Below are positions 27,629-41,487 of a DNA stretch of 64,000 nucleotides, in pieces (positions within the stretch are counted from its first letter, which is position 1; each line of letters begins with the position of its first letter). Under the pieces are notes generated by a model. It was not told the origin of the DNA. It was given only the letters and a program-made list of their open reading frames with translations, and did no database searches. The DNA is from Sphingomonas panacis (GTDB lineage: Bacteria > Pseudomonadota > Alphaproteobacteria > Sphingomonadales > Sphingomonadaceae). The stretch spans positions 4,185,501 to 4,249,500 of the forward strand of contig NZ_CP014168.1 of assembly GCF_001717955.1 (NCBI RefSeq), in the 5' to 3' direction. A program made the position numbers and the translations under genes.

Positions 27629-27630
27629 GC

Positions 27631-29370
27631 TCACATCCCTGTATATTCGAAGCCGTCGTCGTGGGTCGCCAGCGCCGCGCCGATTGCGGCGATCAGCGCG
27701 ACCGGGTTGTCGATCTTGGCTTCGTTGCGCGGCTTGCGCGGGTAGACGTTGTCCTTGGCGTCCTGCTGAGCGACGACGTTGCTCATTTCCCATTCCATCA
27801 CCGGGCAACCGGCGTGGCGGATCAGTTCGGCCTTGGTCCAGGCGTCGAGTTGCTTCATCGGGTCCGAGAAGTTGACGACGGTCGGCCGAACCTCGAGCAC
27901 CGGCGCACCCGACTTCATCAGGCGAGTCACGAGCATGGTCGCCTGAGCGGGGTCATAGGCGACGTGGGCGACATCGAGGATCTCGCGGAGCTCGCCGATC
28001 GCGATCTCGATCTCCTCGTAGTCGGTGATGTTGCCTTCGCTCACGTCGAGCAGGCCCTGAGCGTCCCAGCCCTGGTAAGCGCTCACATCCTCGACCGCTT
28101 TGGACGGCAGGAAGTACCGGCCTAGGCGGATGTACGGGTCAGCCTTGGTCGGCCGGTCGCCTTCCGGCAGGATCAGCACCTCGAGCGCGGCGATATCGAC
28201 CTTGGAGGCGAGATCTAGGCTCAGGACCGCCCGTCGGCCGCGAAACTGCTCGATCGCATCCGCAAACCGCACCGGGATCGCGTCATCGGCACACCGGCGC
28301 CACGCCTCAATGTCGAAATAGGCCGCCTTCGCCGCGACCCATAGGTTGAGGTGCTTGGTCTTGAAGATCCCGCGCTTGCGCGGGGTGGCGATCGCGTCGC
28401 GTTGCCGCGCCAGCAGGTACTCGAGCCCGACCGAGACGCCGATGCAAGGGTTCGCCTTGCGGAGCGCCGCCTCCGACTTCCAGTCATCCTCCTCGTCGAT
28501 CGAATATTCGGCAAAAAACGTGTCGTCATCAAGCGGCGGGCCGCCATTGTGCCCGATGCCAGCGAGCCGTTCGCGCTGCTCGAGGATCATCGCGTAGCAC
28601 GGTCCGGCGAGGTTCTCACCGGCGGTGGTGATGAGCAACTGCAACGGCTGGTCGCGCGCGCCCATGCCGGTGATCATCGTGTCGACCTGGGCGTCGTCGA
28701 CGTGTTCGTGATATTCGTCGTGGATCGAGCAGCTGGGCGACTGCCCGTCGCCCGGATCGCCGATGATCGTCTCCATCCGGGAGCCGTCGTCCGGGCGGTG
28801 CAGCTGCTTCGCCAGCACCTCGATGTTGTATCGTTCCTTCAGCCGCTTGAGCTTCTGGACCATCAGCCTAGCCGGCCGGAAAACCTCCCATGCCTGTTTC
28901 TCGTTGGTCGCGCCCGAATAGACCTCGGCGCCGAACTCGTTGTCGGCGCACAGCATGTAGAGCGCGATGCCCGACGCGATCGCCGACTTGCCGTTCTTGC
29001 GCGGCACGACCAGCATCCACCGGCGAAACCGGCGCGTATCCTTCTGCGGCCCGGCCTTGTGGACCCAGCCGAACACGCACGCGATGTTCCAGATCTGCCA
29101 CGGCTCGAGCACCAAGCGCTTTTTCTGGCGCGCCCAAGGCCCTTTCGTGTGTGGCAGGCGCTCGATGAACTGGCACGGCCGGCTCGCTCGCACCTCGTCG
29201 AAGCGGAACGGGAAGTCATCGTCGGCGCTGCGCACCAACTCCGTGATGAACCGCTCGCACTGGCGGCGGATATACTTCCCGGCCGGGATCTTCCCCGAGA
29301 CGACGTCGCCGGCGTACTGCCGCGCGATCGCCGCGTGGTCACGCGCCGGCGCGCCCGGCGCGCTCGCCAC
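27631..29370 (-). CDS. terL: Terminase large subunit
   Basis: 579 aa. Walker A-type VVPRKNGKSA (121-130), Walker B SIHDEYHEH with D218/E219, the coupling motif LLITTAGENLAGPCY, and a C-terminal RNase H-type nuclease region beginning with AVLSLDLASKVDIAAL. It pumps and cuts DNA with the portal. The start is GTG 29370; the in-frame codons before it reach a TGA, so no ATG is available. A tiny 17-codon frame (29429-29376) lies in the gap to the small subunit and may couple translation, but I do not call it a gene. Confidence 0.93.
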   Translation of the reverse strand: MASAPGAPARDHAAIARQYAGDVVSGKIPAGKYIRRQCERFITELVRSADDDFPFRFDEVRASRPCQFIERLPHTKGPWARQKKRLVLEPWQIWNIACVFGWVHKAGPQKDTRRFRRWMLVVPRKNGKSAIASGIALYMLCADNEFGAEVYSGATNEKQAWEVFRPARLMVQKLKRLKERYNIEVLAKQLHRPDDGSRMETIIGDPGDGQSPSCSIHDEYHEHVDDAQVDTMITGMGARDQPLQLLITTAGENLAGPCYAMILEQRERLAGIGHNGGPPLDDDTFFAEYSIDEEDDWKSEAALRKANPCIGVSVGLEYLLARQRDAIATPRKRGIFKTKHLNLWVAAKAAYFDIEAWRRCADDAIPVRFADAIEQFRGRRAVLSLDLASKVDIAALEVLILPEGDRPTKADPYIRLGRYFLPSKAVEDVSAYQGWDAQGLLDVSEGNITDYEEIEIAIGELREILDVAHVAYDPAQATMLVTRLMKSGAPVLEVRPTVVNFSDPMKQLDAWTKAELIRHAGCPVMEWEMSNVVAQQDAKDNVYPRKPRNEAKIDNPVALIAAIGAALATHDDGFEYTGM

Positions 29371-29439
29371 GGCGATTAGACGATGAGCGGCTCAGCGCCG
29401 CGATAGCTGCCGCGTTCGTGTGCGATCATGGCGGCCACC

Positions 29440-29931
29440 TCAGAAATCAAACTCGTCGCCGCTGCCCGGATCATCCTTCTTGCCGCCGGTGAGGCGGAGG
29501 AAGGCAGACGGTGTCAGCCCCAATTCGCCGAGGAGCGACTGCGCTTGACGCATCGCGTCCGACAACATCGCCACTTCCGGCCGCGCGCGGATCATCGTCG
29601 TGATGACCTGTTGCCCGTCGACCTTGCGCACCGTCGTGCTTTCGCAGGTGTCCCCGACCACCTCGAGAACCGCCTGCCAGCGTTGGATTTGCTCCTGGCG
29701 CTGGGCGAGGATCGCGACGAGCTGGATAAACGACGGGTCGGCCCGACCTTGGTGTTCGAGAATCGCCGACGTTTCTCGGAAGAGTAGCTGCGCAAGATCG
29801 GACAAATGCAGCGGTGGAACCATGCAACTCGCCGGCGTCGCCGGGAGCTTCGCACGTTCCGCTGCGGTCAACGCGCGCGTTGGATCCTTACGCTTCCGAC
29901 CGGCGCCTGGCCGTGATCCACCACTCGGCAT
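29440..29931 (-). CDS. terS: Terminase small subunit, P27-like
   Basis: 163 aa. MPSGGSRPGAGRKRKDPTRA, then PPLHLSDLAQLLFRETSAIL and helices through LAQRQEQIQRWQAVLEVVG and SLLGELGLTPSAFLRLTG, match P27-type small terminases, which recognise the pac/cos site. It lies upstream of terL, with 69 bases between. Its own pac/cos site is usually nearby; the 162-base gap to the HNH gene is a candidate. Confidence 0.85.
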   Translation of the reverse strand: MPSGGSRPGAGRKRKDPTRALTAAERAKLPATPASCMVPPLHLSDLAQLLFRETSAILEHQGRADPSFIQLVAILAQRQEQIQRWQAVLEVVGDTCESTTVRKVDGQQVITTMIRARPEVAMLSDAMRQAQSLLGELGLTPSAFLRLTGGKKDDPGSGDEFDF

Positions 29932-30093
29932 CGGCCGTTCTCCCGGGGATCATTTTGGTTTTGATTTCGCCTGCGCGAAAATTTGACTGACGAGCGGTGT
30001 CCGGCCGGCCGGGCCTCAGAGATTTTACCCACCCCCGTCCCACATGGTGAAATCGGCCCAAAACGGCCATTTTTCTCACAATATGGGACGTTT

Positions 30094-30417
30094 TCAGCGA
30101 TCCGGGCGATCGCGCCGGGCGGCGGTGCGTTCCGCCGCACTTTTCGCGTCATGGCAGGGGATGCACAGCCCTTGCTTGTTTGAGCGGTCGTCCGTGCCGC
30201 CTTCGCTGAGCGGCTTGATGTGGTCGACGCGCGTGCTGGCGGTCGTGCGGCCGAGCTCGAGGCAAGCTCGACACAGCGGCTCCTCGGCGAGCACCTGTGC
30301 ACGATCGCGCTGGCCGGCGCGCCCGCGCTTACGTTTATCGACGAACGTCGACGTGCGCTGCCAGGGCTTGCGCTCCTTCTGCCCGGGCCGGACTAGGCTG
30401 GACGGTTGCGACGGCAT
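30094..30417 (-). CDS. HNH endonuclease, packaging-associated
   Basis: 107 aa. CRACLELGRTTASTRVDHIK then PLSEGGTDDRSNKQGLCIPCH: a Cys4-zinc-supported HNH nuclease with the VDHI...N...C-x-x-C-H pattern. Phages with P27-type terminases usually encode such a nuclease beside terS, and it is needed for cos cleavage in HK97. The first ~40 residues are basic. ATG 30417 abuts the stop of the DUF3164 gene. Confidence 0.87.
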   Translation of the reverse strand: MPSQPSSLVRPGQKERKPWQRTSTFVDKRKRGRAGQRDRAQVLAEEPLCRACLELGRTTASTRVDHIKPLSEGGTDDRSNKQGLCIPCHDAKSAAERTAARRDRPDR

Positions 30418-31056
30418 CTAGGCCGACGCCATGTCGATCGTAACGGCATGCCATGCGGCATCCGGTGCCGGCCGGTCATAGAACCGGATGTAGGTGCGCG
30501 AGCCTATGACGCGCATGGAGTCACGGATGGCGTCCATCGCGCGCTGCCAGCGTTCGTCTGCGATATCCACGCGCAGCAGCATGAACAGTTCGGCGCGGTT
30601 GATCTTGCCTTCCTTGTCCACCTGGAAGACGCGGTTCACCAGCGCACGAAGTTCGATGGCGCTGCCGACTGCCCACTCGGTCAGGCATTCGTCGATCAGT
30701 GCTTTCGCGGACTGCAGCTCGGGGCCGAACTCGAGCAGATCGGCAACCTGCACCTGGACCTTCTCGCATCCATCGAAGGAGACGAGCGTGATGTTGCCCT
30801 TCTTACCGCCAAGAGGCGCGCCATAATCCTGCGCCAGCAGCGCCTGTAGCGCGCTCACCGCCTCGAACGCCTGCACCTTGAACACGGCGATCTGCTCGGA
30901 CAGCGCGCGTGCGGCGACGAGAACGTCGCGCACGGTTTCATCCATTAGCAGATCGGCCGCCTTGATCGTCGCGATCGGCACCAAGCTGCCCTTCGCATCG
31001 CGCAGATAGGGCATGCCGCCGACGTCGATCGCGGCCGGATGTTGGGGCTTGCTCAT
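30418..31056 (-). CDS. DUF3164 family protein
   Basis: 212 aa. GGMPYLRDAKGSLVPIATIK then QDYGAPLGGKKGNITLVSFD and RNAELFMLLRVDIADERWQR-type sequence match DUF3164, a family found in Mu-like and other temperate phages near replication and early genes. The function is not established. ATGA overlap with the 53-aa gene upstream indicates one operon. Confidence 0.75.
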   Translation of the reverse strand: MSKPQHPAAIDVGGMPYLRDAKGSLVPIATIKAADLLMDETVRDVLVAARALSEQIAVFKVQAFEAVSALQALLAQDYGAPLGGKKGNITLVSFDGCEKVQVQVADLLEFGPELQSAKALIDECLTEWAVGSAIELRALVNRVFQVDKEGKINRAELFMLLRVDIADERWQRAMDAIRDSMRVIGSRTYIRFYDRPAPDAAWHAVTIDMASA

Positions 31057-31214
31057 GCGCTAGGGATTTCCCGTCCGAAAGCCGGTGCGGCGATATCGCG
31101 CCCGCGACGGGCGTCGGCAGCGAGTTTGCGGAGAAGCCCGACCGAGATGCCGATCTTGGCGCTGTCGGGATGGCCGGCCGCGAGCACGGCTTCGATCTTG
31201 GCGAGGTCGGTCAT
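31053..31214 (-). CDS. Small phage protein, 53 aa
   Basis: MTDLAKIEAVLAAGHPDSAK and then IGISVGLLRKLAADARRGRD: helical, basic at the end. ATG 31214 and its TGA at 31053 overlap both neighbours as ATGA, which is good support for a translated gene. Unknown function, likely an accessory of the early/middle operon. Confidence 0.6.
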   Translation of the reverse strand: MTDLAKIEAVLAAGHPDSAKIGISVGLLRKLAADARRGRDIAAPAFGREIPSA

Positions 31215-31507
31215 CAGAACATCGCCTTCGTTCCGTCTTCGCTGATCGCCAGCGGCGCGGCGCTCGGCCGACGCGCGCTGGCCCCACGGAAGGCCGCGAC
31301 AAGATCGTCGGCGAAGCGCTGGGCCAGTTCCTCGACGTCGTGGAGATCTCGGGGGCGGGTACCCAACCGCGCACGCGACACGATCGTATCCCAACGCGGG
31401 GTCATCCGGTCGAGAAGATCCGCGATCTGCGGGCGCGGTTGGGGCGTCGCTTCGACGCGGCGCAGCTGCGATAGCACGCGAAGTGAGGCGGCTTGGTCCT
31501 GGGACAT
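31214..31507 (-). CDS. Hypothetical phage protein, 97 aa
   Basis: ATG 31507 is preceded by GAAGGAG. It starts MSQDQAASLRVLSQLRRVEA and has PQIADLLDRMTPRWDTIVSR, then DLHDVEELAQRFADDLVAAF. Helical throughout; no motif recognised. It overlaps the next gene by one base (TGATG-type coupling). Probably part of the phage middle operon. Confidence 0.55.
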   Translation of the reverse strand: MSQDQAASLRVLSQLRRVEATPQPRPQIADLLDRMTPRWDTIVSRARLGTRPRDLHDVEELAQRFADDLVAAFRGASARRPSAAPLAISEDGTKAMF

Positions 31508-31655
31508 GGTAGTCTCCTTCAGGAACGACGAAGCCCGCCGCGCGGGGGTGCGCTGACGGGCTCGGGACACAGCTGTGCCGGGGTCGTTTATGTCGGTTCG
31601 GTGACCGCTTTTCGCCGCGCCCTTGTGGGCAGTGCCCCTAAGGTCACCCCTGCGA

Positions 31656-32261
31656 TCAGACGCGGCGCCAGCCGTTCAGGGCACGCACCAGGATCGCCAG
31701 CGCGCGGCGGTTCGACATGCGCGCTGCGCGTGCCGCGGCGACCAGGCCGACGTCGTCGATGATGATCGAGAGCAGCATGGTGGCGTGCGAGCCGATCGCG
31801 GCGCGCCACCGCGTGTACGCCTGTTCGCGCAGCACCTGGCCGAGCCTTTCCTCGGCCGCGCTGTTCGGCCCGCCTCCGCCAAATCCCCCGGTCCACCGCG
31901 CGGTCCGCACCGAGACGTCGGCGACCGTCGCCGCATAGGCCGCGCCGATCTCCTCAGCCGCCGCCAGCTGGTGCGCATCGAGCGAGCCGGCTTTCACCAG
32001 GCGAGCGAGCGCCCCTTCCCGCCTGCTTTCCGCCTGGGCGTGGTCGAGCGTTTCGGGAGTAGCGTTGACCTTGTGCGACCAACGCTCGCGGAGCGCGACG
32101 CGCGCCTCGATGTCGTCAGCGAGCACGATCGGCGCGGCCGGTTGTTTCTTGCTGCGCCTGCCGGTCGGTTTTGGCGGACGAGGGCGCGGCGCGCCGAGCA
32201 CGAGGAGCTCGACCCGCTGCCGCTCGCGTTCCTTACGCGATACCGTCATCTCCGTAGTCAT
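31656..32261 (-). CDS. Possible phage late/middle regulator, 201 aa
   Basis: ATG 32261 is chosen for a GGGGAC upstream; longer starts are possible, and the gene overlaps the LexA-like HTH gene. The N-terminal ~50 residues are basic (SRKERERQRVELLVLGAPRP). The C-terminus LLSIIIDDVGLVAAARAARM, then SNRRALAILVRALNGW, looks like a sigma-region-4 or ArpU/RinA-type helix-turn-helix of phage transcription regulators. This is inference from pattern and from position before the late genes. Confidence 0.5.
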   Translation of the reverse strand: MTTEMTVSRKERERQRVELLVLGAPRPRPPKPTGRRSKKQPAAPIVLADDIEARVALRERWSHKVNATPETLDHAQAESRREGALARLVKAGSLDAHQLAAAEEIGAAYAATVADVSVRTARWTGGFGGGGPNSAAEERLGQVLREQAYTRWRAAIGSHATMLLSIIIDDVGLVAAARAARMSNRRALAILVRALNGWRRV

Positions 32262-32637
32262 GATCGTCCCCGCCAAGCGCCTCAACCGGCGGGACATGAT
32301 CCAGAACGGCGATCAGCGACAGGTGACTTTGTGGACCCGTCCCGCTGCTCCCGATCACGTCCTGGTCAACGATCCAGCCTTGCGAACGCAGTTTCTCCGC
32401 GATCATCTTCTCCGTCAGCCCCGGCACGCTGATCGCGCGCTGCGAGCCGGGAGCGCGCTCGATCATCTTTTCGGTGGCGAGCTGGTGGACCAGCGTCTTC
32501 GCGCGGGTCTTCCCAACGCCCAGCGCTTTGGCGATGTCGAGCATGGCAGGGCTATGGCCCTTCGTCCGCAAATGCTCAGTGATATACGCCAACGCCTCCG
32601 CTTTCCGCGACGGCCGGACTGGCAGCAGTGCATTCAT
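32233..32637 (-). CDS. LexA-type winged-helix DNA-binding protein
   Basis: 134 aa. PSRKAEALAYITEHLRTKGH followed by SPAMLDIAKALGVGKTRAKT is the LexA N-terminal winged-helix pattern (ltpRQ...l.fI..y....G..PS..EIa..lg). No LexA peptidase domain follows: the C-terminal half is acidic (GGDDHDYGDDGIA). Likely a phage regulator. First gene of the leftward operon; a TTATAT-like -10 box lies upstream on the minus strand near 32668-32675. Confidence 0.65.
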   Translation of the reverse strand: MNALLPVRPSRKAEALAYITEHLRTKGHSPAMLDIAKALGVGKTRAKTLVHQLATEKMIERAPGSQRAISVPGLTEKMIAEKLRSQGWIVDQDVIGSSGTGPQSHLSLIAVLDHVPPVEALGGDDHDYGDDGIA

Positions 32638-33085: not shown

Positions 33086-33442
33086 ATGAACAGTTATTTT
33101 GTACGCATTCAGCTCAACGCGATAAACGGTGTGAGCGCCGACCGGCATACCTACGATCGGCTTCACGCCGCGATGGCTCGTATCGGAGCGTCCCGTACGA
33201 TCACTGGATACGATCGCGGCTTTGCCGAAACCTACGATCTTCCGCATGCTGAATACACAATGGAGAGCAAACTCGACGTGCAGAGGTTGCGTGACGCGAT
33301 CGCAGGCGGCGTTTCGACACAGTGGGCCGACAACGAAATTCTGGTGATCGAGTGGGCGAAGTGTGCATGGAAGCTTAGCAAGCACGTGCCGGCACTGCCG
33401 TCTCGTACTGGGACGCAAAGCGTACTCGGCTTCTACAACTAG
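33086..33442 (+). CDS. Small ferredoxin-like-fold protein, GhoS/Cas2-like (tentative)
   Basis: 118 aa from ATG 33086 behind AAGGAAAG. MNSYFVRIQLNAINGVSADR, then YDRLHAAMARIGASRTITGY and DLPHAEYTMESKLDVQRLRD: beta strand, helix, Y/F-x-R, strand in the beta-alpha-beta order of Cas2/GhoS/VapD-like ferredoxin folds. GhoS is an RNase antitoxin and relatives occur in defence and toxin-antitoxin loci. The match is by pattern only. A hairpin/TACCCC module begins 41 bases after its stop, like the one after the RelA/SpoT gene. Confidence 0.55.
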   Translation: MNSYFVRIQLNAINGVSADRHTYDRLHAAMARIGASRTITGYDRGFAETYDLPHAEYTMESKLDVQRLRDAIAGGVSTQWADNEILVIEWAKCAWKLSKHVPALPSRTGTQSVLGFYN

Positions 33443-33482: not shown

Positions 33483-33578
33483 CGCGGCGGAGAACCCCTC
33501 CGCCGCGTTCCCGCAAAAGCCGCAGATGCAGGTCGCGCGTTGTGCCAAAAGATCGCGATCATACCCCCGCGGTACCCC
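33483..33578. repeat. Hairpin + TACCCC module, copy 2
   Basis: Stem CGCGGCGGA (33483-33491) / TCCGCCGCG (33499-33507), identical in both arms to copy 1, with loop GAACCCC. The first ATACCCC starts at 33561 (54 bases after the stem) and GTACCCC at 33572, 11 bases further on. It separates the plus-strand GhoS-like gene from the 3' end of the minus-strand Toprim gene. Confidence 0.72.
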
Positions 33579-33655
33579 GGCCGCACCGCCGCCTCATACG
33601 CCCTGATGTTGGAGCTGGGTACAGTCCGGCCTGTGTGCTCGGGAGCCGAGGAGAA

Positions 33656-34987
33656 CTATGGCTCCCCCGCACTCCGGCCCGATGCCAGGACGGTGGCTTC
33701 GGCGATCAGACGGTCCATGACCAGCTCCAGCTTCGAAGTATCATAGAAGCCACCGGCCAAAATTTCGTCGCTTTGTGCAAAGAAGTGCCTGGTGTACGTC
33801 TCCTTGTGTTCAAGGGCGCCGTGCCAGGCTTCGACGTCCTTCTTGAAATTGCTCCACAATACTTGGGCCGGCCCATAATTGGGCAATGCAAGATCAAGAT
33901 AGCACTCGATCGCGGCAGCCCGGCCGTTGATGTCGCTGCTAGAAATGCCCTCGGGGCCGCGTGCCGGGAACTCGCAGAAGGTCTCATGGTCGGGTAGCAC
34001 CATTGATCGCATATTTTCGGGCATGCCGAGCCTTTGCAGGCGGCAGTGCGCCCCTCGACCTTCCGCATCATTGTCGAGCAGGAAGAGAATGTTATTCTGT
34101 ACGTCAATTCTGACCAAGCCTTCGGCGAACTTCACCAGATTGCCGGTGCCCGAGAAAGGGTGACTTTCGTTCACATCGATAAAGTGGAAGAAGTCGGCGA
34201 CGTCGGGCCGGAGAATGTTCAGAGCGCGCTTCACAATCAGGGCGTCCGAAGTGCCTTCGGTCGCCACTAGAACACGCTTGTAACGTGGTGCGCCGGTGAT
34301 GAAGGAGGCAGCCTCCTCCCACCCGTTCTCGACCAGCGTCCCATATTGCCAGACCAGTTCCGCATCGGCGTTTCTGCCATCGTGACCTAACACCTGAAGC
34401 ATCGAATAGGCGTCTAGGATGAACATCGCCGAACCAAAATACTGTCTTTCTGATTCGGCATACCCACTCATCCATCGGTAGGGGCTGTGCTCTACCGGGA
34501 TCCTACTGATTTCGTCGGTAAGCGCGGCAAAGCGACCTGGCGGTGGCGCTTCCTTTCCCTCCTCGACCGTCAACCTCACGGGGCGGGTGTCGAGGTCCGT
34601 CAACGGAAAACGGCGGCAGAACGCGCAGAATTCATCAAAGGGCATGAAGTTGGTTTGCGCTCGCACGCCGGGCACATTCATGGATGTGACGTAGCTAGCG
34701 GAGGCGGTGGCGTCGCGCACCGCTTCCTCATAGGCGAGGCGAGCGCCTTCGAGATTATGTCCGACCAAATCCAAGCGGGGCAGCACGCGCCCTAGCGGGC
34801 GGGCAAATGCCGCCTCGTATGCGGCGGGATCCTCATTGTTCGCCGAGAAATAATCATAGTCGATACCGTCGCTTCGGCGCCTCGTCCGATCCCCTTCTTG
34901 GAACAGGAAGCCATGATCGAAGCCTATCCCATTTTTCGCCCAATCGAGGCTCATGCCCTCGATCTCGAGATGAATCTCAGTCCCCAC
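33656..34987 (-). CDS. HEPN/Toprim-associated protein, probable nuclease
   Basis: 443 aa from GTG 34987, supported by GAGGGGGGAAG upstream. The N-terminus (MGTEIHLEIEGMSLDWAKNG, then GFDHGFLFQEGDRTRR) matches the HEPN/Toprim N-terminal domain family known from genomic conflict systems. The Toprim domain lies at ~236-310: VLVATEGTSDALIVKRAL with E244, and FLLDNDAEG with D305/D307. The C-terminal ~120 residues are helical. Toprim proteins in defence (OLD, Gabija, RNase M5 types) nick or cleave nucleic acid. It is alone between two modules. GC is lower than in the phage late genes. Confidence 0.75.
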   Translation of the reverse strand: MGTEIHLEIEGMSLDWAKNGIGFDHGFLFQEGDRTRRRSDGIDYDYFSANNEDPAAYEAAFARPLGRVLPRLDLVGHNLEGARLAYEEAVRDATASASYVTSMNVPGVRAQTNFMPFDEFCAFCRRFPLTDLDTRPVRLTVEEGKEAPPPGRFAALTDEISRIPVEHSPYRWMSGYAESERQYFGSAMFILDAYSMLQVLGHDGRNADAELVWQYGTLVENGWEEAASFITGAPRYKRVLVATEGTSDALIVKRALNILRPDVADFFHFIDVNESHPFSGTGNLVKFAEGLVRIDVQNNILFLLDNDAEGRGAHCRLQRLGMPENMRSMVLPDHETFCEFPARGPEGISSSDINGRAAAIECYLDLALPNYGPAQVLWSNFKKDVEAWHGALEHKETYTRHFFAQSDEILAGGFYDTSKLELVMDRLIAEATVLASGRSAGEP

Positions 34988-35384
34988 GCTTCCCCCCTCG
35001 ATCGGCGTAGCATGCCCTTGTCGTCCGGACGTGTCGAGCTGTCCGGTGTGACGCTAAGCGCTGGCCCGGAATCTGTCGCGCGCGGCCCACGCGCTTGTGA
35101 GATCAGCACATGAAGAACATCTGATCTCGTGACAGCCGTTGGGTTAGGTCAACGGCCTAAAATAGCCGTTCTCAGGCCGGCGGCTTCGGCTGCGGACGCG
35201 GACGTACACGCGACGGAGATGCCCTCCGCCGGGTCCGCTTTATGCTCTGGCATTTTGGCGGAGTTCCTATGGAGATGACGCGGTTGTACCCCCCCCCCCC
35301 CGGCAGTACCCACCACGCTCAGACGTATAAACGCTTACGGCCGAAAAGATGCATTGCGCTCCGCCGATTTAAGCGCCTCCTGAG
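34988..35384. other. Gap between Toprim and kinase units
   Basis: About 400 bases holding the leader of the Toprim gene and module copy 3. A plus-strand frame 35242-35529 exists but is Arg/Pro-rich and unconvincing. The gap includes a run of 13 C (35289-35301) in the first TACCCC unit, a slippage-prone tract about 300 bases upstream of the Toprim start. Confidence 0.5.
35211..35312. repeat. Hairpin + TACCCC module, copy 3 (C-tract expanded)
   Basis: Stem CGACGGA (35211-35217) / TCCGCCG (35225-35231) with one A-C mismatch and 7-nt loop GATGCCC. The first repeat GTACCCC starts at 35286 and runs into a 13-base C tract; the second, GTACCCA, starts at 35306. Spacing from hairpin to first repeat fits the other copies; the spacing between repeats is widened from 11-12 to 20 by the C tract. 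It lies between the Toprim start and the kinase operon end. Confidence 0.65.
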
Positions 35385-35558
35385 CTATCGCCGCTTTGGC
35401 GGGGCTCCGGGTTGTCGCCAGTCCAGCCGACCGGCCTCAGCCGTAGCAACGAAGAACGGCGAGCTCAGATCCAAGTCCGTCGGCAGCGACGTACAACCCT
35501 TCGGTGCCGTCACTTCCCGCTTCCTGTAGCGGCTCTTGTCGTTCTTGCTGTTTGCCAT
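35385..35558 (-). CDS. 57-aa basic protein coupled to the kinase
   Basis: ATG 35558 overlaps the kinase stop as TGATG, so translation is expected to couple. The product starts MANSKNDKSRYRKREVTAPK, then GCTSLPTDLDLSSPFFVATA, and ends PPKRR before TAG at 35385. It is Lys/Arg-rich at both ends with a hydrophobic centre, and has many Ser/Thr that a kinase could modify. I know no family. It is short, so it can be missed by gene callers; the overlap and codon use favour a real gene. A kinase substrate, inhibitor or effector are all possible. Confidence 0.6.
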   Translation of the reverse strand: MANSKNDKSRYRKREVTAPKGCTSLPTDLDLSSPFFVATAEAGRLDWRQPGAPPKRR

Positions 35559-36595
35559 CAATTTTTCTTCAAAACGCTCTCGATCTCTCGTCGCGTCATC
35601 CTACGAACGCACAAGTCCGTTTTTCGGCGGGGAGTTCCGCCAGGAGCAGTAGTCGTAAAAACCGTCGAGCCATCGGCGTTCAATACGAAGCGCTTCTCTG
35701 TTCCCATTTCGTTCTTAATCCACGTCTTGTCAAGCGTTCCCCTCGCAAGCTGCCAGTCTAGACCATCCTCGACCGAGGCCAGTGCGTTCGCCACCTCCAG
35801 TGCGGAGTTGTAGCGGTTGTTGCGATCGGGCTCGATGCACTTGACTATCACCTTCCGTAGTCTCGTCGGAACATGCTCGTCGAAGGCTTGTCGGTCAGGG
35901 AAGGTGCCGGCCAGTATCTCGCCAGCCAAGGCCGTCATGTTGATATTTCCACCGTGCTCGAAGCGGGAGAATTGCCGATTGAATGCATCGTTTCCGATCG
36001 TCATCCGATAAAGCGTGAGTCCGACCTGGTATATATCGAACCTGAGGTCGAACTGTTGATTGGTCGTCGCCTCCGGTGGTGCCATTCGAATGTAGAGCCC
36101 ATTGGGCCGCGCGAGCCCCAATTGCATCTGCTTAGCGAGCCCGAAATCGGCGAGCAGAGCTTCGCCCCGGTTTGAAAGCAGGATGTTGTCCGGCTTGATG
36201 TCGAAGTGGATCAAACCTTTACTGTGGATGTTGTGCAGGCCGCTCAGCATCTGGCAGCCGAGGCGCACGGTCTCACGTGCCGTCAGATTGCTCGCGGCCA
36301 TCAGCCCTTTAACGGAACCCCGCCTGTATAGAGGCATGGCGACGTACACGCTGTCCTGATCCTCGCAGGCATAGTGCACCTGAACCACATTTTGATGGGC
36401 GGTGGCGTAGAGCGCTTTCGCTTCATCGAAAAACCCGTTCACGCTATGGAGAGAGCTTTTCGCAATGGTCTTCATTACGATCTCTGCGCCGAGTTGGACG
36501 TCGTGCACGATCCAAGTCTTAGAGTTTCGGCCGTCTGATCCTATTTCGCGAATTTCCGCGAACTGAAGTTCCGCCCGCTTATATGGCTGCAGCAT
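35558..36595 (-). CDS. Serine/threonine protein kinase (Hanks type)
   Basis: 345 aa, soluble. Gly-loop-like EIGSDGRNSKTW (17-28), ATP-binding K42 in IVMKTI, helix-C E58, catalytic loop HFDIKPDN (130-137; HFD instead of HRD, as in RD-minus kinases), DFG 150-152, and APPE 172-175. The catalytic Asp132, Lys134 and Asn137 are present, so it should be active. The domain ends near ~275; the C-terminal ~70 residues (DGLDWQLARGTLDKTWIKNE) are unrecognised. There is no membrane segment or PASTA domain, unlike housekeeping kinases. It starts next to the stop of the RNase H-fold gene. Stk2-type kinases in phage defence give a precedent, but this operon differs. Confidence 0.88.
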   Translation of the reverse strand: MLQPYKRAELQFAEIREIGSDGRNSKTWIVHDVQLGAEIVMKTIAKSSLHSVNGFFDEAKALYATAHQNVVQVHYACEDQDSVYVAMPLYRRGSVKGLMAASNLTARETVRLGCQMLSGLHNIHSKGLIHFDIKPDNILLSNRGEALLADFGLAKQMQLGLARPNGLYIRMAPPEATTNQQFDLRFDIYQVGLTLYRMTIGNDAFNRQFSRFEHGGNINMTALAGEILAGTFPDRQAFDEHVPTRLRKVIVKCIEPDRNNRYNSALEVANALASVEDGLDWQLARGTLDKTWIKNEMGTEKRFVLNADGSTVFTTTAPGGTPRRKTDLCVRRMTRREIESVLKKN

Positions 36596-37042
36596 TCAGG
36601 CCCCCTTCGCGCAAAGCATGGCTTCGCGTTGCTCCTTGTTCATCGTTTGCCAGTCGTCGATACCGGGATCAATGGTGCCGTCGACGATCGGCTTGAACTG
36701 CGTCCTAGTAAGTTTAAGGCGCGACATGATCGACGAGACATGACCAATATAATATGCTTCAAGTTCGCTGCTGGCGAACGACTCTTGGATCACTCCTTCG
36801 AGTTCGACGCGTCGTATATTCATATTTTGCGCGCTCGGTTCGGTCACCCTGATGCCGGCCCGCTGCACTCCATACTCTCGCATGACATCAAGCAGGTGGC
36901 TCCGAACGTACTTCAGCGATTCAGGGGTGTCGAACGCAGCGGGAATGCGGATTTCATCTACGTTGACGAACTCATCCGCGGTGGCATCGTATATGGCAAA
37001 CGTCACCGTACTGGGCGAGACGCGGATTCCTATTGTCTTCAT
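36596..37042 (-). CDS. RNase H-fold (DUF3010-like) protein, first gene of kinase operon
   Basis: 148 aa. MKTIGIRVSPSTVTFAIYDA is a first beta hairpin as in RuvC/RNase H folds, but the catalytic Asp position is Arg (GIR, not GID). A helix follows (YVRSHLLDVMREYGV), then AGIRVTEPSAQNMNIRRVEL and EGVIQESFASSELEAYYIGH. This order is close to DUF3010, an uncharacterised RNase H-like family; E77 or E79 may be retained. It could be a pseudo-nuclease sensor. The gene is followed directly by the kinase (TGA ATG). A module (copy 4) lies ~100 bases upstream of its start. Confidence 0.6.
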   Translation of the reverse strand: MKTIGIRVSPSTVTFAIYDATADEFVNVDEIRIPAAFDTPESLKYVRSHLLDVMREYGVQRAGIRVTEPSAQNMNIRRVELEGVIQESFASSELEAYYIGHVSSIMSRLKLTRTQFKPIVDGTIDPGIDDWQTMNKEQREAMLCAKGA

Positions 37043-37145
37043 TATTCATCGTGACACGGCAATAGTGGCGTTGACAAGCGCCCGATCGAAAGCCGCGCCG
37101 CTTCAGCGCCTCCCGTAGTGCAATCGGTCATCATCGTGGCGGAAG

Positions 37146-37241
37146 CACGGCGGACATGCCCTCCGCCGCGTGCGTGCCTCACCCGCGGATTTCCGCGATG
37201 CGCGCGTCTTTCGCGACGCGGCCGTACCCCGCCGTTACCCC
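37146..37241. repeat. Hairpin + TACCCC module, copy 4
   Basis: Stem CGGCGGA (37148-37154) / TCCGCCG (37162-37168), with loop CATGCCC; an outer C-G pair lies beyond one mismatch. GTACCCC starts at 37224, 54 bases after the stem (counted to 37170), and TTACCCC at 37235, 11 bases on. The second repeat contains the TAA stop codon of the gene that ends at 37235, so the module abuts or cuts that gene's 3' end. Confidence 0.7.
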
Positions 37242-37699
37242 GCCGCCGGCTTGCTGGTCGCCGTTCGGTCATGCGGATTCACGACCGAGGGCACGCCGCT
37301 GGCGGCGCCCATGCTCAGATTGAAGGGTGGCGGCTCCGGCGTTTGTGAGAGCATGTGCAGGTCGCCGAGCGCGGCGGCAATCAAGTGCGCGACCTCCATC
37401 CGCGAATTTCGCATCGACCGGTCGATCTTACTCAGAAACGTCCGGCGCAACTCCAGCGGCAGCGCGATGATCTCCGCGCCAACACGGGCCATCACCGCCT
37501 TGGCATCCAGCTCGCGTCCCTGCGCGTCGAAGATTTCCATATACCGAAAGCGGGCCGCGATCTTCCCGGCCGGCAGGTCGATCCACTGCTCCAACTCGCC
37601 GGGCTTGCGCCCCGACACGAGGTTGCGATCGGCGGCGGTCCACTCTCGCGTTCCGTCGAACACGACGTAGATCAGCTCGTCATCTCGAATCGTTCTCAT
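37235..37699 (-). CDS. Hypothetical phage protein, 154 aa
   Basis: Starts MRTIRDDELIYVVFDGTREW at ATG 37699; a longer in-frame start at 37735 exists. FLSKIDRSMRNSRMEVAHLI suggests a helical, possibly DNA-binding middle. The C-terminus (MGAASGVPSVVNPHDRTATS, then KPAAG) is low-complexity, and the stop lies inside the second TACCCC repeat of module 4, so the natural end may have been replaced. Two GAACAT boxes 11 bases apart (37705-37710, 37716-37721) lie just upstream of the start and could be an operator. No family recognised. Confidence 0.5.
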   Translation of the reverse strand: MRTIRDDELIYVVFDGTREWTAADRNLVSGRKPGELEQWIDLPAGKIAARFRYMEIFDAQGRELDAKAVMARVGAEIIALPLELRRTFLSKIDRSMRNSRMEVAHLIAAALGDLHMLSQTPEPPPFNLSMGAASGVPSVVNPHDRTATSKPAAG

Positions 37700-37805
37700 G
37701 GAGAGAACATGACAAGAACATTTCCAACAGCGCAAGCGGTCTCTTGGCTAAGCCGGATTAGCGGCTTCCAATGGTCGGCATCGGCTTCATCCGCGAGTAA
37801 AAGCG

Positions 37806-38252
37806 CTATTTGCGCTCGAAGGCGACAATCGGATCGAGTTTGCCATCCAGCATCAGGCGCCAGCGCCTGAACCGAACCTCGCCGATGACGGCCGTATTTC
37901 CGGTAGCGGCCAAAGGTACAACAACGGTCGTTACTCCATATGAACGCTCGTTTTTCGCGATCAGTCCAAAGCGGCCACCACGGAGTTGGATGTCGAGCGC
38001 TTCAGCCGCATCAATCGTTGCGCTGCCAAGATCAACCTCCAGGCGGAGGCCGGATACACCAACGCCAGAAACCTCTTTAGGCTCGCACGTAAACGCCGAG
38101 CCGATTTTCTCGCCGGAGAGATAGACCATCCATTCCCCAGCAAGAAGGAAGCCATCACCACCGAAACCGGGGATCAGATAAGCGAGCGCGGAAGTGGGCG
38201 TGCCGTTGAATATCTCGATGCGGTCAGCGGACACGAACGCCGAATTGGACAT
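37806..38252 (-). CDS. Hypothetical protein, 148 aa
   Basis: ATG 38252 has AAGGTGAG upstream. MSNSAFVSADRIEIFNGTPT, GFLLAGEWMVYLSGEKIGSA and RFGLIAKNERSYGVTTVVVP: beta-rich soluble protein, no motif recognised. It lies between the HIRAN gene and the 154-aa gene, in the leftward operon behind the repressor, where temperate phages often carry exclusion or recombination genes. Confidence 0.55.
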   Translation of the reverse strand: MSNSAFVSADRIEIFNGTPTSALAYLIPGFGGDGFLLAGEWMVYLSGEKIGSAFTCEPKEVSGVGVSGLRLEVDLGSATIDAAEALDIQLRGGRFGLIAKNERSYGVTTVVVPLAATGNTAVIGEVRFRRWRLMLDGKLDPIVAFERK

Positions 38253-38288
38253 GAAGTTACTCACCTTTGGGTACGGGAATAAGAGCAC

Positions 38289-38573
38289 TCACGGAGCGAG
38301 GAACGGTTGATCGTCACCCCGCTTCAAGGTCCCGATCGTTGTCGAACAGCCCTGCCCTTCATGTAGCAGGGCGTCGCGCAACCAGTTGTCGCGGCCAAGG
38401 TAGCCGATCGTGGCATTTCGGCTACATTTCACGACTACGGCATCCGCGTCGTAGGGATTGCCGATCTCCGCGAACAACATCACCCGTTCGCCCTCCCGGC
38501 ATGCTTCGATCGCACGTTGATAAGATGCCTCGCCGACGATGCTGACATGATAGGTGCGCGCCCCGTCCGCCAT
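38289..38573 (-). CDS. HIRAN-domain protein
   Basis: 94 aa from ATG 38573 with GGAGGG upstream. YHVSIVGEASYQRAIEACRE, then FAEIGNPYDADAVVVKCSRN and ATIGYLGRDNWLRDALLHEG, covers one whole HIRAN domain (V-x-G-x-x-(Y/F)...NPYD..AV.V......IGYLPR). HIRAN binds 3' DNA ends in fork-remodelling helicases such as HLTF; stand-alone forms occur in phages and islands. A role in recognising damaged or replicating DNA is inferred. Confidence 0.85.
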   Translation of the reverse strand: MADGARTYHVSIVGEASYQRAIEACREGERVMLFAEIGNPYDADAVVVKCSRNATIGYLGRDNWLRDALLHEGQGCSTTIGTLKRGDDQPFLAP

Positions 38574-38642
38574 TCTGATCCCTCCGAAGATCGCCTCCAC
38601 GAGAGGTCGCATACAGCCGGGATTGTTGCAAACGGTTGTAGA

Positions 38643-39005
38643 TCAGGCCGAGGAATTGCTCTCAAGCGCCCGGCACAGACCCTGCGCGTGCTGGACGAGG
38701 AGCAGTTTCACCGCTGCTGGAAGTGCCGCGAACGCCTCGAGCATCGCCGCCGCCTCGTCGTCGAGCGGTGCGCCCGCGATCCGCTGACCGGTCACGATCC
38801 AGTACCAGTCTGCACCCGCTGACCCGATTCGCAGCAGATATTCCGTCGATGGCAATGCGCCCGCCTCATAGCGGTGCTGACTATTGAGACTGACGCCCCC
38901 CAGCTCAGCCAGTTGCGTTTGATTTAGGCCGATTTCTTTCCGCCACGCCCGCAAGCGCTCGCCAATTTTCTCATCACTGGTGAAAATCTCTTGACGAATT
39001 GCCAC
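38643..39005 (-). CDS. XRE-family prophage repressor
   Basis: 120 aa if started at GTG 39005; ATG 39047 is an alternative adding MCHFVVNRLRNVST. The HTH is GERLRAWRKEIGLNQTQLAE followed by LGGVSLNSQHRYEAGALPST, with the EYLLRIGSAGADWYWIVTG stretch of the short CI-like phage repressors that lack a peptidase domain. It is divergent from the Cro-like gene, with 47 bases between the GTG and that gene's ATG. It should hold the lysogenic state by binding the shared intergenic region. Confidence 0.82.
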   Translation of the reverse strand: MAIRQEIFTSDEKIGERLRAWRKEIGLNQTQLAELGGVSLNSQHRYEAGALPSTEYLLRIGSAGADWYWIVTGQRIAGAPLDDEAAAMLEAFAALPAAVKLLLVQHAQGLCRALESNSSA

Positions 39006-39052
39006 GGTTGAGACATTTCTAAGGCGGTTTACAACAAAATGGCACATTACAG
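39006..39052. promoter_or_regulatory. Divergent repressor/Cro control region
   Basis: A possible rightward promoter is TTGAGA (39008-39013) and TACAAC (39030-39035), 16 bases apart. Neither gene shows a clear Shine-Dalgarno sequence here, so leaderless or near-leaderless starts are possible. Operators must lie within about 60 bases; no long perfect dyad is seen. Assignment rests on the divergent XRE/Cro layout. Confidence 0.4.
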
Positions 39053-39334
39053 ATGTTGGCCGTCCGAGTCCCTGCCGAAGCGCTAAAGGAACGAGCTCTC
39101 GTCGCACGCGCGCGCTTCGAAGCGTCCGGCACCAACATCAGCCAGTGGGCGCGCGAGCGCGGTTTCTCGGTCAGCCTCGTTCAATCGGTGCTCTCTGGAA
39201 ACCGCGCCTGCCGGCGCGGCGAATCCCACAAGATCGCCGTCGCGCTCGGCCTCAAGCCGACGGTGGCACCACCGGGCATGAACGAACCAGCCGATCCCCG
39301 CTTCGACGCGGACGTGTTGGAGCAGGTGCCATGA
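39053..39334 (+). CDS. Cro-like DNA-binding protein (BcepMu gp16 type)
   Basis: 93 aa. RARFEASGTNISQWARERGF, then SVSLVQSVLSGNRACRRGES and HKIAVALGLK, is the HTH pattern of the BcepMu gp16-type phage regulators, where the repeated RG-x-x-H-x-IAV-LGLK end is diagnostic. Divergent from the repressor and first gene of the rightward early operon, so it is placed as Cro. Its TGA overlaps the next gene's ATG. Confidence 0.8.
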   Translation: MLAVRVPAEALKERALVARARFEASGTNISQWARERGFSVSLVQSVLSGNRACRRGESHKIAVALGLKPTVAPPGMNEPADPRFDADVLEQVP

Positions 39335-39573
39335 GCGCCCTCAGCGACTACACGCCATCCACCGCTCGACACCGCCTCCGCTATTGGACGGGGATCGACG
39401 GCGGACTGGATGCCATGGCCTTGGTTGCCGGACTGAACGGCAAACCGCACCCGATCGAGCAGGTGGGGGTGCGAAATGCCATGCAGATGCTGATCATGGC
39501 AAACATCCGTTTGGCGCGAGCCCAGCTTGCGGTGGCGCAGTCGGACGAGGTTACTCTGGAGCCGGGTTCGTGA
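39331..39573 (+). CDS. Early protein, 80 aa
   Basis: ATG 39331 overlaps the Cro-like stop as ATGA. MSALSDYTPSTARHRLRYWT, GIDGGLDAMALVAGLNGKPH and then MQMLIMANIRLARAQLAVAQ: mostly helical, soluble. No family recognised. Its 3' end overlaps the minus-strand gene at 39551 by 23 bases. Confidence 0.6.
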   Translation: MSALSDYTPSTARHRLRYWTGIDGGLDAMALVAGLNGKPHPIEQVGVRNAMQMLIMANIRLARAQLAVAQSDEVTLEPGS

Positions 39574-39742
39574 TCCCTTCCATGATCTTGCCCCCGGTCT
39601 GCGCGCTGTCGAACTCCGCGGGAGGCGGATTTTTCGCGAACGAGTTGACCCTACCCTCCGCCGCTTCGGCGACGCCGGTCCAGCGGCTGTGCAACTCCTG
39701 GAGCAGCGCGACAACGATTTGCCGTATCGGAGATACAGGCAT
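39551..39742 (-). CDS. Small minus-strand protein inside the early operon, 63 aa
   Basis: ATG 39742 with AAGAGGA upstream. MPVSPIRQIVVALLQELHSR then WTGVAEAAEGRVNSFAKNPP looks coding. It runs against the early operon and ends inside the 3' end of the 80-aa gene, so its transcript would be antisense to early mRNA. Unknown function. Confidence 0.4.
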   Translation of the reverse strand: MPVSPIRQIVVALLQELHSRWTGVAEAAEGRVNSFAKNPPPAEFDSAQTGGKIMEGITNPAPE

Positions 39743-40138
39743 CCCAAATCCTCTTCGTGGGTGTGTAAGCAACACCACGATAGCCGGACGGGGTCGGGCG
39801 TCCAGCCCGGCCCCTGAAGGCTGCACCCTTTCATCATCACCAACCCTTCCCCCCTTCGGCCGCTTGCAGACCGGCCGATTCCCCAGCGAGGCGGAGCGCA
39901 CGCGATCGCGCCCGACCCAGCGGGAGCTCCTTGGGTGTCTGCCGTACCCGCGTACCGGCAGCGATCGACCTCCTCCCCGATCGCTGCCGCCAATCATGGG
40001 TACGTCGCGCCGCTCGATCCGTCGCTGCGGATCGGCGCCAAATTCCCGTATCTCGAGCTCGGCCGCCATGCGGGCGGCGAGCGGCGCCGGCGGGCCGACC
40101 CCCTGCCCGTCGGCGTCGTCCCTATCGGGGCAAGGGGT
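39743..40138. other. 396-base gap in early operon
   Basis: A hairpin GGGGTCGGGC (39790-39799) / GCCCGGCCCC (39805-39814) with 5-nt loop and one G-T pair may attenuate the early transcript. Open frames cross the rest on both strands (39935 upward on plus, 40069 downward on minus) but are Arg/Pro/Ser-rich and have no motif. The longer plus-strand reading would extend the 40139 gene by 68 residues; I do not support it. This spot would suit an early promoter or origin. Confidence 0.35.
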
Positions 40139-40603
40139 ATGACGAAGGCCCGCCCGATCTTCGAAGACGCGCTGCTGCGCGTGCTAGGCGATCTCACGCC
40201 CGCACGCTGCGCGCTCATCACCGGTCGCGCCGCAGCGTATTTGCGCGAGGCGAGTGATCCGGACCGGCCGCAGCGCCTCACCGTCCAGGACATGCTCAAG
40301 CTCGACATCGAGCATCTCGCCTTCGATGGCACGACACCGCTGTTCGCCGCCTATGGCGCGCTCGTCGCGCAGGCGCGCGCTGAGGTCTATGCCGACGCCG
40401 TGGCGATCGGCCGCGCCACGAAGGACGTGCTCAAGGAAGATGGCGAGGCGCACCTCGCGCTGTTCCTCGCGTCACAGCCGGACGCGACCGATCACGATCT
40501 TCGCGCCGCGCTGCGCGAAACGGAAGAGGCGGTCGCGGCGCAGTCGCAGGCGATCCAGGTTGTCCGCGTCGCCCTCGAGAAGCGCCACCAGCAGCCGCCG
40601 TAA
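40139..40603 (+). CDS. Early protein, 154 aa
   Basis: ATG 40139 with a GGGGCAAGGGG upstream. MTKARPIFEDALLRVLGDLT, then RLTVQDMLKLDIEHLAFDGT and EVYADAVAIGRATKDVLKED. All-helical, acidic; the C-terminal ~45 residues are a coiled coil (RETEEAVAAQSQAIQVVRVA). I recognise no family. It is placed among phage early genes of unknown role. Confidence 0.6.
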   Translation: MTKARPIFEDALLRVLGDLTPARCALITGRAAAYLREASDPDRPQRLTVQDMLKLDIEHLAFDGTTPLFAAYGALVAQARAEVYADAVAIGRATKDVLKEDGEAHLALFLASQPDATDHDLRAALRETEEAVAAQSQAIQVVRVALEKRHQQPP

Positions 40604-40691
40604 GCCGGGCGCCCACCGTCATCTCCGAACCCAAGCCGCCCGATGATCTCTCGATCGTCGGGGCGGAAAACTGCTGCCTGGAACCTGCCGC

Positions 40692-40898
40692 ATGTCCTGC
40701 CGACCTGATCTCTACAAGGCGCGCATCACCTTGGATCGCACGCTGCTCGAGCTACGCGACGTCGAGCGGAACGTCGGCGGTGCTGCCCAACTCAACGTGG
40801 CGCGCGCGCGGGAGTATCTCGCGGCCGCTGACATCGAGCTCGGTCGGGCGGTGCAACTCATCGCGCCCCCTGCCGTGATTTTCGAGCGGCTGCGCTGA
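40692..40898 (+). CDS. Early protein, 68 aa
   Basis: MSCRPDLYKARITLDRTLLE then LRDVERNVGGAAQLNVARAR: two amphipathic helices. Its stop overlaps the start of the next gene by one base (TGATG), so it is in the coupled operon. No family recognised. Confidence 0.55.
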   Translation: MSCRPDLYKARITLDRTLLELRDVERNVGGAAQLNVARAREYLAAADIELGRAVQLIAPPAVIFERLR

Positions 40899-41293
40899 TG
40901 CCCGCGCTCACCCCGGGCGCGTATCTCAAGATGCGCCGCTGCGCGGCCCGCCTGTCGGTTGCCGACGTCGCCGCGCGCATCGCCACGGTGCCGCGCCTGG
41001 CCGAACACGCCCTCGTCGAGTTGATCGAACTGATCGAGGCGGACGCCGCGCCGGCGAGCTTCGCGACGATCGTCGTCTTCAACAACGTCTATCCATTCGA
41101 CATCGCGGTGCTCGCGGCGCTCGAGCGGATCAGTCTCGGTGCGGATCTCGCACCGCCACGCCTCTGCCGCGTCTGCGCCTGTAGCGACCACGATCCATGC
41201 TTTGGCAGAACCGTGTTCGGTCCATGCTTTTGGGTCGAGGACGATCTCTGCTCGTTCTGTGCGGCCCCGCCGGCGCGGAGCGCGACCGGGTGA
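40898..41293 (+). CDS. Cys-rich zinc-binding early protein, 131 aa
   Basis: MPALTPGAYLKMRRCAARLS is a possible HTH-like start. The C-terminal third carries CRVCACSDHDPCF then GPCFWVEDDLCSFC, at least six Cys arranged as a probable zinc-binding domain. Phages of sphingomonads and rhizobia often have similar short Cys-rich early genes. Role unknown, perhaps nucleic-acid binding. Overlaps the next gene as GTGA. Confidence 0.65.
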   Translation: MPALTPGAYLKMRRCAARLSVADVAARIATVPRLAEHALVELIELIEADAAPASFATIVVFNNVYPFDIAVLAALERISLGADLAPPRLCRVCACSDHDPCFGRTVFGPCFWVEDDLCSFCAAPPARSATG

Positions 41294-41487
41294 ACGACCT
41301 GCCGCCCCCGTCGCCTCGGGCAGTCCGGCGCGCGCGAATCGCGATTGACGTCGCGATCATCGTCGCCGGCGTCGCCGTCGCCTTCGCCCTCACACGCCAT
41401 CCCGCCCCGGCGCTGGTGACCCTCGCGGTCGCCCTGTTGGTCGCCGTCACCGCTTTCGTCGTCATCATGAGGGAGTTTTCCCGATGA
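41290..41487 (+). CDS. Two-TM small membrane protein, 65 aa
   Basis: GTG 41290 overlaps the previous stop as GTGA. After a basic start (PSPRAVRRARIAID) come two membrane segments, VAIIVAGVAVAFALTRH and LVTLAVALLVAVTAFVVI. Small two-TM proteins in early operons may act in superinfection exclusion. Next gene overlaps as ATGA. Confidence 0.6.
   Translation: MNDLPPPSPRAVRRARIAIDVAIIVAGVAVAFALTRHPAPALVTLAVALLVAVTAFVVIMREFSR

Follow-up and report, generated by a model that had tools for sequence, protein, structure and literature searches.

What are the short hairpin-bearing sequences that recur among the accessory genes of a prophage in Sphingomonas panacis, and which enzyme might act on them? 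The question is raised by a stretch of 64,000 nucleotides of the S. panacis chromosome (NZ_CP014168.1, positions 4,185,501 to 4,249,500; the window), in which positions up to about 42 kb belong to a tailed-phage prophage of the 5,322,941-base (5.3 Mb) host genome. IMG/VR contig 2751185897_000001 (42,933 bases) is the same prophage. It carries four copies, all in one orientation, of a module in which a 7-bp spacer separates the two halves of a 9-bp inverted repeat and two TACCC repeats come after it. An earlier inspection of the letters alone (the sequence-only reading) had proposed that these modules are recombination or accretion sites, similar to integron attC sites, which add defence genes one unit at a time. 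Here we describe the module as a family of sites in prophages of Sphingomonas, rarely of other Sphingomonadaceae. The modules are probably site-specific recombination sites for IntB, an extra tyrosine integrase of these temperate tailed phages.

Architecture and distribution of the module

Base-by-base comparison confirmed the four copies and their shared orientation, with the one correction that the third stem starts at 35209 and not at 35211. The copies at 4356-4380 and 33483-33507 have no mismatch to CGCGGCGGA-N7-TCCGCCGCG, that at 35209-35233 has two and that at 37146-37170 has one, just as the sequence-only reading had counted (two identical stems, one or two changes in the others). Its distance of 53-55 nt from the stem to the repeats and its TACCCC-type pairs were also found again, the final repeat of the 35209 copy being TACCCA instead of TACCCC. 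When up to three mismatches are allowed, the window contains six matches against 0.78 expected, a number reached by none of 100 shuffled sequences; the two extra matches (10372 and 50733, three mismatches each) are taken as chance.

Two sets of modules were compiled from the loci we fetched. The strict set holds 166 unique copies with the half-sites GGCGGA and TCCGCC fixed by definition; the loose set (at most two core mismatches, TACCC at set positions) holds 259 unique copies, possibly with chance hits among them. Complementarity in the strict set declines outwards, from 86% of copies at base pair 7 to 70% at pair 8 and 53% at pair 9, and amounts to 25-34% beyond. The spacer of the loose set ends in CCC in 175 of 259 copies, in CCG in 28 and in CGC in 8, and its first four bases vary (G, C or T at the first, A or G at the second, any base at the third and fourth). 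The TACCC repeats of this set lie about 34, 45, 55 or 66 bp past the 21-bp core. They are paired 11-12 or 21-22 bp apart in at least 205 of the 259 modules (sum over the 25 commonest classes), a count that is not independent because the loose definition itself requires TACCC near those places; the same positions recur among cores listed with or without arms.

A further sample comprises the 110 loci that were fetched by protein similarity alone. A spacer of 7 is found in 72 of their 76 cores, including all 25 that are accompanied by an arm pair, while spacers of 2-6 and 8-13 together account for 4 cores, none of them with an arm pair. Inverted core half-sites around a short overlap, together with arm sites, make up the attachment (att) sites of tyrosine integrases. 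Judged by its letters, the module has this layout: inverted half-sites, an overlap of fixed length (7 bp, within the usual 6-8 bp) and helically spaced TACCC repeats, the putative arm sites, phased on one side only of the core. Orientation is uniform in 36 of the 37 loci with at least two strict modules. In two genomes (G128 and G129; loci L059 and L060) the overlaps of the arrays, and likewise those beside IntB, end in CCG or CGC rather than CCC, a hint of compatibility groups.

In the whole S. panacis genome, the core CGGCGGA-NNNNCCC-TCCGCCG with at most one mismatch occurs four times, four forward and none in reverse, and always in the prophage (reversed control: 0 and 1 matches). The core with arms likewise gives four matches, and TACCCC(4-16 nt)TACCCC gives three (control 0 and 1), all in the same prophage. 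The bare stem with any loop and one mismatch is spread genome-wide in 52 hit lines, so the stem alone is not specific. Since the modules are confined to the prophage in their own genome, we rejected their reading as repeats of the repetitive extragenic palindromic (REP) type. Intrinsic terminators were rejected as well, T-runs being no more frequent beside the stem (17 of 166) than in the next 14 nt (25). Random chromosomal copies of either sort were what the sequence-only reading had named as fatal to its proposal.

Across the genus, the core with at most one mismatch is present in 80 of 151 genomes, chance hits included, and the core with arms in 45 of 295. Taxonomic range was judged by the two-arm pattern (the scan of named genomes held chance hits in unrelated taxa): it occurs in 7 of 298 genomes and 6 of 96 genera of an even draw from the family, our own included, and in 1 of 240 genomes drawn from the class, namely that of the window. 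Viral contigs contributed 76 module stretches.

A second integrase linked to the module

IntB has the composition of an Arm-DNA-bind_3 tyrosine integrase, with three Pfam domains (arm, core-binding and catalytic) above cut-off and the catalytic R-K-H-R-H-Y set (R238, K268, H337, R340, H364 and Y380); all six residues are retained in 58 of 58 aligned module-linked homologues. At 22 of 30 IntB loci with 1.5 kb flanks a module lies upstream in the expected orientation, and at none of the 30 downstream. One of the 22 has a palindromic core that can also be read in the opposite orientation, and the window's own locus was scored as a miss because its module sits at the cut end of the flank. In a midpoint-rooted FastTree phylogeny of 83 integrases, 57 of the 58 module-linked ones, the window's IntB among them, form part of a single clade of 63 (support 0.9), whose six remaining members had about 1.5 kb of flank available for the search. 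Outside the clade are the module-linked integrase of locus L332, eight integrases of the IntA kind (40-42% identity) that lack a module in a flank of sufficient length, and eleven whose flanks are short.

The same association is seen between genomes: at E<=1e-104, IntB is found in 34 of the 45 module-bearing genomes of the genus against 25 of the 250 others (hand tally; Fisher 2e-19). Among 80 viral methyltransferase loci (11 of them too short), ten have an adjacent, correctly oriented integrase of the IntB kind (44% identity or more), and eight of these ten have a module (hand tally). A ninth module is present in L339, where the contig ends before the integrase; a match in L380 without the GGCGGA core was discarded. 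In the collections of phages (277 matches) and plasmids (677 matches), IntB at 60% identity or more is absent from every record. The sequence-only reading had offered two candidate enzymes, this integrase and a serine recombinase (42868-44436). Linkage makes the former likely; the latter has only weak relatives (22-26%) in a few loci, no evidence in its favour was found, and we rejected it as the cassette enzyme.

Lysogeny apparently relies on other sites. The prophage of genome G055 (2817934-2858780) is bounded by a 47-bp repeat of the 3' half of tRNA-Thr; a separate Phage_integrase open reading frame (ORF) ends 56 bp from the right-hand copy and IntB lies near the other end, modules and IntB being present and a match to IntA absent. 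Prophages of G290, G228 and G183 are bounded at tRNA-Asn by repeats of 14 (which is short), 17 and 23 bp; at 143-159 bp from the tRNA they have a relative of IntB (42%) that is of the IntA kind. The distance between an IntA homologue and a tRNA is about 140-160 bp in four prophages; G229 has one 158 bp from tRNA-Thr, yet no end repeat was found there. As all four mapped prophages end in tRNA repeats and contain their modules internally, the module was rejected as the lysogeny att site (G055 and G183 each have one further hit elsewhere). Since the lysogeny sites lie at tRNAs, beside another integrase, IntB is an additional integrase in these phages. For the prophage of the window, no end repeat of at least 13 bp was found between window positions -3399..0 and 38001..50000, and no tRNA within the window or 19.6 kb to its left.

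Cassette boundaries, cargo and prophage layout

Breaks in homology between phages accumulate at the hairpins. When every module-bearing locus is counted, without removal of duplicates, 10.2% of the 686 alignment ends are at most 20 bp from a hairpin centre, against 0.86% at random. After reduction to 76 loci to limit duplicates, by which rows of the named-genome scan and most isolate viral contigs were dropped, 5.5% of 271 ends still lie within 15 bp. Random placement, repeated 200 times, gives 0.5% on average and 3.3% at most. In both partners at once, 3.7% of the ends lie at a hairpin. We inspected the junctions of seven of the eight clean pairs of this set. In six of them ungapped identity rises from 19-27% on the left side to 69-94% on the right, with the switch at the hairpin; in the seventh (L050/L228) the break is about 30 bp left of it. 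One pair, L051/L239, with overlaps GGCC-CCC and TACA-CCC, differs up to overlap base 4 and agrees from CCC onward.

Two slots per phage hold cassettes, one between IntB and the methyltransferase gene, the other between the LexA-like gene and the early genes. A 405-bp unit is 99% identical between L051 and L206, the flanks being visibly more diverged. In L199 the IntB-methyltransferase slot holds a 402-bp unit between two modules, and the equivalent slot contains a single module in 11 rows from 7 distinct genomes, both flanks being alignable at 69-87% identity. Presence or absence of exactly one unit, which the sequence-only reading had named as a check, is thus found in this slot, though not for the window's own units. 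Comparison between phages also reveals cassettes shared by the two slots. A unit to the left of the methyltransferase gene in L187 resembles one right of the LexA-like gene in L213 (84% over 624 columns; 80% over 785 columns with both modules), and the Leaf407 array (L046) has a glyoxalase-like cassette whose counterpart in G151 (L281), 86% identical over 503 bases, lies next to IntB. These two cassettes in non-equivalent slots are the strongest evidence that units may move. Together with the IntB clade, the hairpin breaks and the L199 comparison, they support recombination or accretion sites as originally proposed.

Adjacent modules of the same orientation delimit 140 units (95 after clustering) of 359 to 5,664 bp; 66 of the 140 could not be assigned to a slot. 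From these a cargo set of 125 ORFs was taken, the longest of each unit or the two longest in larger ones. These ORFs match 74 Pfam families at E<=1e-3; among the 25 families listed, 13 occur in a single ORF, the commonest occurs in three, and none is an integrase. Acyltransferase, Crp-like, glyoxalase, GGDEF, AbiEii-type AAA, RloB, Type ISP, PIN and kinase families, among others, are represented, and 138 PADLOC models, many of them overlapping, are matched at 1e-5. Evidently, the cargo is a general mixture with defence genes among it and not as its sole content, so that the cargo of defence genes originally suggested was too narrow. Relative to the module, 62 cargo ORFs run with it and 63 against.

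With its HEPN/Toprim and kinase units, the array of the window is a small instance of this system (Table 1). Its gene order is the one common around modules: IntA, HTH_36, IntB, module(s), methyltransferase, late genes, LexA-like gene, module array and early genes. The two units do lie between module copies as the sequence-only reading had stated; its RelA/SpoT and GhoS-like genes lie left of a copy, and no two modules enclose either of them at short range.

Table 1. Features of the window; positions are counted from its first nucleotide unless stated otherwise.
Feature	Position	Strand	Basis and remarks
IntA, 3' part (convergent integrase, Arm-DNA-bind_3 type)	64..753	+	Pfam; proposed lysogeny integrase
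IntA, whole gene	about -539 to 669; contig 4184970-4186166	+	full gene in genome
HTH_36-like gene between IntA and IntB	704..1510	+	Pfam 23.4 bits, below cut-off of 25
IntB, second tyrosine integrase (Arm-DNA-bind_3, Phage_int_M, Phage_integrase)	1711..2922	-	Pfam; proposed cassette recombinase
RelA/SpoT-domain gene, between IntB and module 1	3249..4316	+	Pfam; PADLOC candidate defence model PDC-S33
Module 1	4356..4453	+	core 4356-4380, overlap CAATCCC, arms 4436 and 4448
Late (virion) block, D12 methyltransferase to LexA-like gene	5516..32637	-	between modules 1 and 2
GhoS-like gene of the sequence-only reading	33086..33442	+	weak YmfI_phage match, 26.5 bits (cut-off 140)
Module 2	33483..33578	+	core 33483-33507, overlap GAACCCC, arms 33562 and 33573
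HEPN/Toprim N-terminal domain protein, cargo of unit 33483-35208	33656..34987	-	Pfam
Module 3	35209..35312	+	core 35209-35233, overlap GATGCCC, arms 35287 and 35307
Protein kinase (35558-36595) and 148-aa protein, cargo of unit 35209-37145	35558..37042	-	Pfam
Module 4	37146..37241	+	core 37146-37170, overlap CATGCCC, arms 37225 and 37236
Presumed early prophage genes (HIRAN-like, HTH_31, unknowns)	37235..42156	-	homologues of HTH31, p40712, p41593 flank other arrays

The interval from 4356 to 33483, between modules 1 and 2, comprises the entire 29-kb virion gene block, in the order D12 methyltransferase (5516-6301), tail, tape measure, capsid, protease, portal, terminase, DUF3164 and LexA-like gene (32233-32637). 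As sites of the same orientation bracket this block, IntB could in principle drop or exchange it; no such case was seen among the compared phages. A swap of the whole late block is not supported, homology inside it varying gene by gene.

Several other features deserve mention. The HTH_36-like gene is recurrent between the two convergent integrases, is also found in G055, where IntA has no match, and might encode a directionality factor or a replication protein. The RelA/SpoT-domain gene matches PDC-S33 over nearly its full length (410 bits); the interval between IntB and module 1 that it occupies is variable, the S. populi prophage having there some 770 bp in which no similarity was detected. 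Between module 1 and the methyltransferase gene an IS630-family insertion (4466-5518, HTH and DDE parts in separate frames) has ends that read TAGAGCAT and ATGCTCTA; the related S. populi prophage is without it. The kinase matches the PD-T4-6 and mad6 models. To the right of the phage, the region 42868-63793 looks like a neighbouring mobilisable element, with a large serine recombinase, TrwC-type relaxase, TrwB-type coupling protein, IS21-type pair and a 1412-aa protein without a PADLOC match.

A proposed cassette-exchange mechanism, its rivals and its relatives

The best reading of these observations is a cassette-exchange system that works like an integron, in which IntB would be the recombinase. 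IntB would act on the half-sites GCGGCGGA and TCCGCCGC, which flank the 7-bp overlap, mostly NNNNCCC, and its arm domain would bind the TACCC repeats, which lie on one side at a distance of about 34-70 bp. A cargo unit would then start with the right half-site and arms of one module and end with the left half-site of the next. Two modules of the same orientation would recombine by strand exchange inside the overlap and release the unit as a circle bearing one module, and this circular intermediate could be inserted by recombination with another module. Since the CCC that adjoins the right half-site is constant while NNNN is free, identity may be required only near one cleavage point. The CTnDOT integrase, IntDOT, which belongs to another family and another element, follows a similar logic: its overlap is 7 bp, identity is needed next to one cleavage point and a variable part is tolerated.

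Recombination between modules need not be site-specific, and the rival to take seriously is that they are mere repeated linkers, across which host or phage homologous recombination swaps the cargo over repeats of about 115 bp, IntB doing something else. The similarity of modules in and between some arrays (72-87% over some 110-150 bp, as in L187/L213) speaks for this, and the permuted blocks of L047 and L124 join at another, chromosomally dispersed repeat. We nevertheless hold it unlikely: many modules share little besides core and TACCC repeats, linkers need neither a fixed 7-bp spacer nor one-sided phased repeats nor a link to a single integrase clade, and the L051/L239 pair begins to agree only at the CCC of its overlap. 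Less probable still is that the modules are operators, terminators or promoters that stay with their accessory genes. They are intergenic and share one direction along the phage, a trait also of the repressor stoperators of certain phages, but cargo genes run equally with and against them, T-runs beside the stem are not enriched, homology breaks at the hairpin, and module presence follows IntB. Serial entry of separate integrative islands or satellites beside an earlier att site would also leave tandem sites of one orientation, with IntB as the integrase of such an island, a setting in which Arm-DNA-bind_3 integrases are common. To this we give equally little credence, as the units measure 0.36-5.7 kb, the 25 of 74 Pfam families listed for them include no integrase, and phages that themselves attach at a tRNA have the two slots in corresponding positions.

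A number of observations weigh against IntB-driven exchange. No excision or insertion event was seen directly. The module-linked integrase of L332 (44%) falls outside the IntB clade, 11 of the 45 module genomes are without IntB at the cut-off used, 25 of the 59 IntB genomes are without an exact core-plus-arm match, and two of the ten methyltransferase loci with an adjacent integrase show no detected module. In all loci together, two cores with a spacer of 10 have an arm pair too. About 90% of alignment ends are not at modules, and only five left-similar/right-different pairs bear on whether the overlap NNNN travels with the left neighbour. For the units of the window itself, comparison with the closest relatives gave no difference of a single unit; S. 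populi (IntB 91%) and G252 (85%) differ from its array over a wider stretch, which is why gain or loss of these cassettes was not caught. Finally, the near-identical blocks of L047 and L124 (reverse-complement 3137-7675 and 2940-7386), three in number and 99.9-100% identical, are permuted at joints that carry not the module but a GTCCGCTTTCC...GGACATT-type repeat. This repeat has 8 hits (at most three mismatches) over 4 contigs of G034 and none in the other three genomes examined, that of the window included. Other recombination therefore also reshapes the arrays.

With integrons the system shares a tyrosine recombinase adjacent to a tandem array of uniformly oriented sites that delimit small unrelated cargo, the hairpin-like form of these sites, and cassettes that appear to move between arrays. 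It differs in that IntB has no match to the integron-integrase model TIGR02249 at E<=1e-3 (only PRK09692 is listed), that of 259 modules, searched from -60 to +120, a single one has the box pair RYYYAAC...GTTRRRY (mean of shuffled sequences 1.54), that the arm repeats suggest a double-stranded att site, and that cargo orientation is unbiased and the array split over two phage slots. Rfam gave no match in the window. As both integrase family and attC boxes fail, the system is not filed as an integron, and the likeness to attC drawn in the sequence-only reading falls with them. By domain content IntB belongs with the P4/CP4-type integrases (Arm-DNA-bind_3, formerly DUF4102); its best NCBIfam match is PRK09692 (161 bits, below the cut-off of 434), and the solved relatives 3jtz, 3ju0 and 2kkv cover its types of arm and core-binding domain. 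Such integrases integrate one element at one site, often a tRNA. Here, unlike there, lysogeny is the task of IntA or a different integrase, and IntB is associated with numerous internal sites.

Phages with exchangeable cargo have been described. The part of the work on P2-like phages and P4-like satellites considered here reports fixed hotspots whose cargo often consists of anti-phage systems, exchanged by a route that is speculative (cos ends and homologous recombination; Rousset et al. 2022, PMC9122126). Positions are likewise fixed in our phages, whose units can be recognised by repeated sites and a linked integrase. Integrons and CALINs (clusters of attC sites lacking integron-integrases) in phage genomes, according to the excerpt used (PMC9892861), contain true attC sites, some recombined by IntI1. 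They resemble our system as cassette arrays inside phage genomes and differ from it in their sites, since our modules are not attC. No earlier description of the system was found in literature searches of open-licence PubMed Central papers.

How phages gain or swap accessory genes at fixed hotspots is an open question, on whose route the P2/P4 paper, in the part considered here, only speculates (PMC9122126). In the present case site, boundaries and linked integrase can be named, so the mechanism is directly testable. On balance, we lean towards a cassette-capture system that arose from a P4-type integrase independently of integrons, with a dedicated extra integrase of temperate phages that collects, stores and trades single units between slots and phages. 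If this is true, tyrosine recombinases gave rise to cassette arrays on more than one occasion, and the pair of IntB and module would be a handle for finding new cargo, including candidate anti-phage genes, by position alone.

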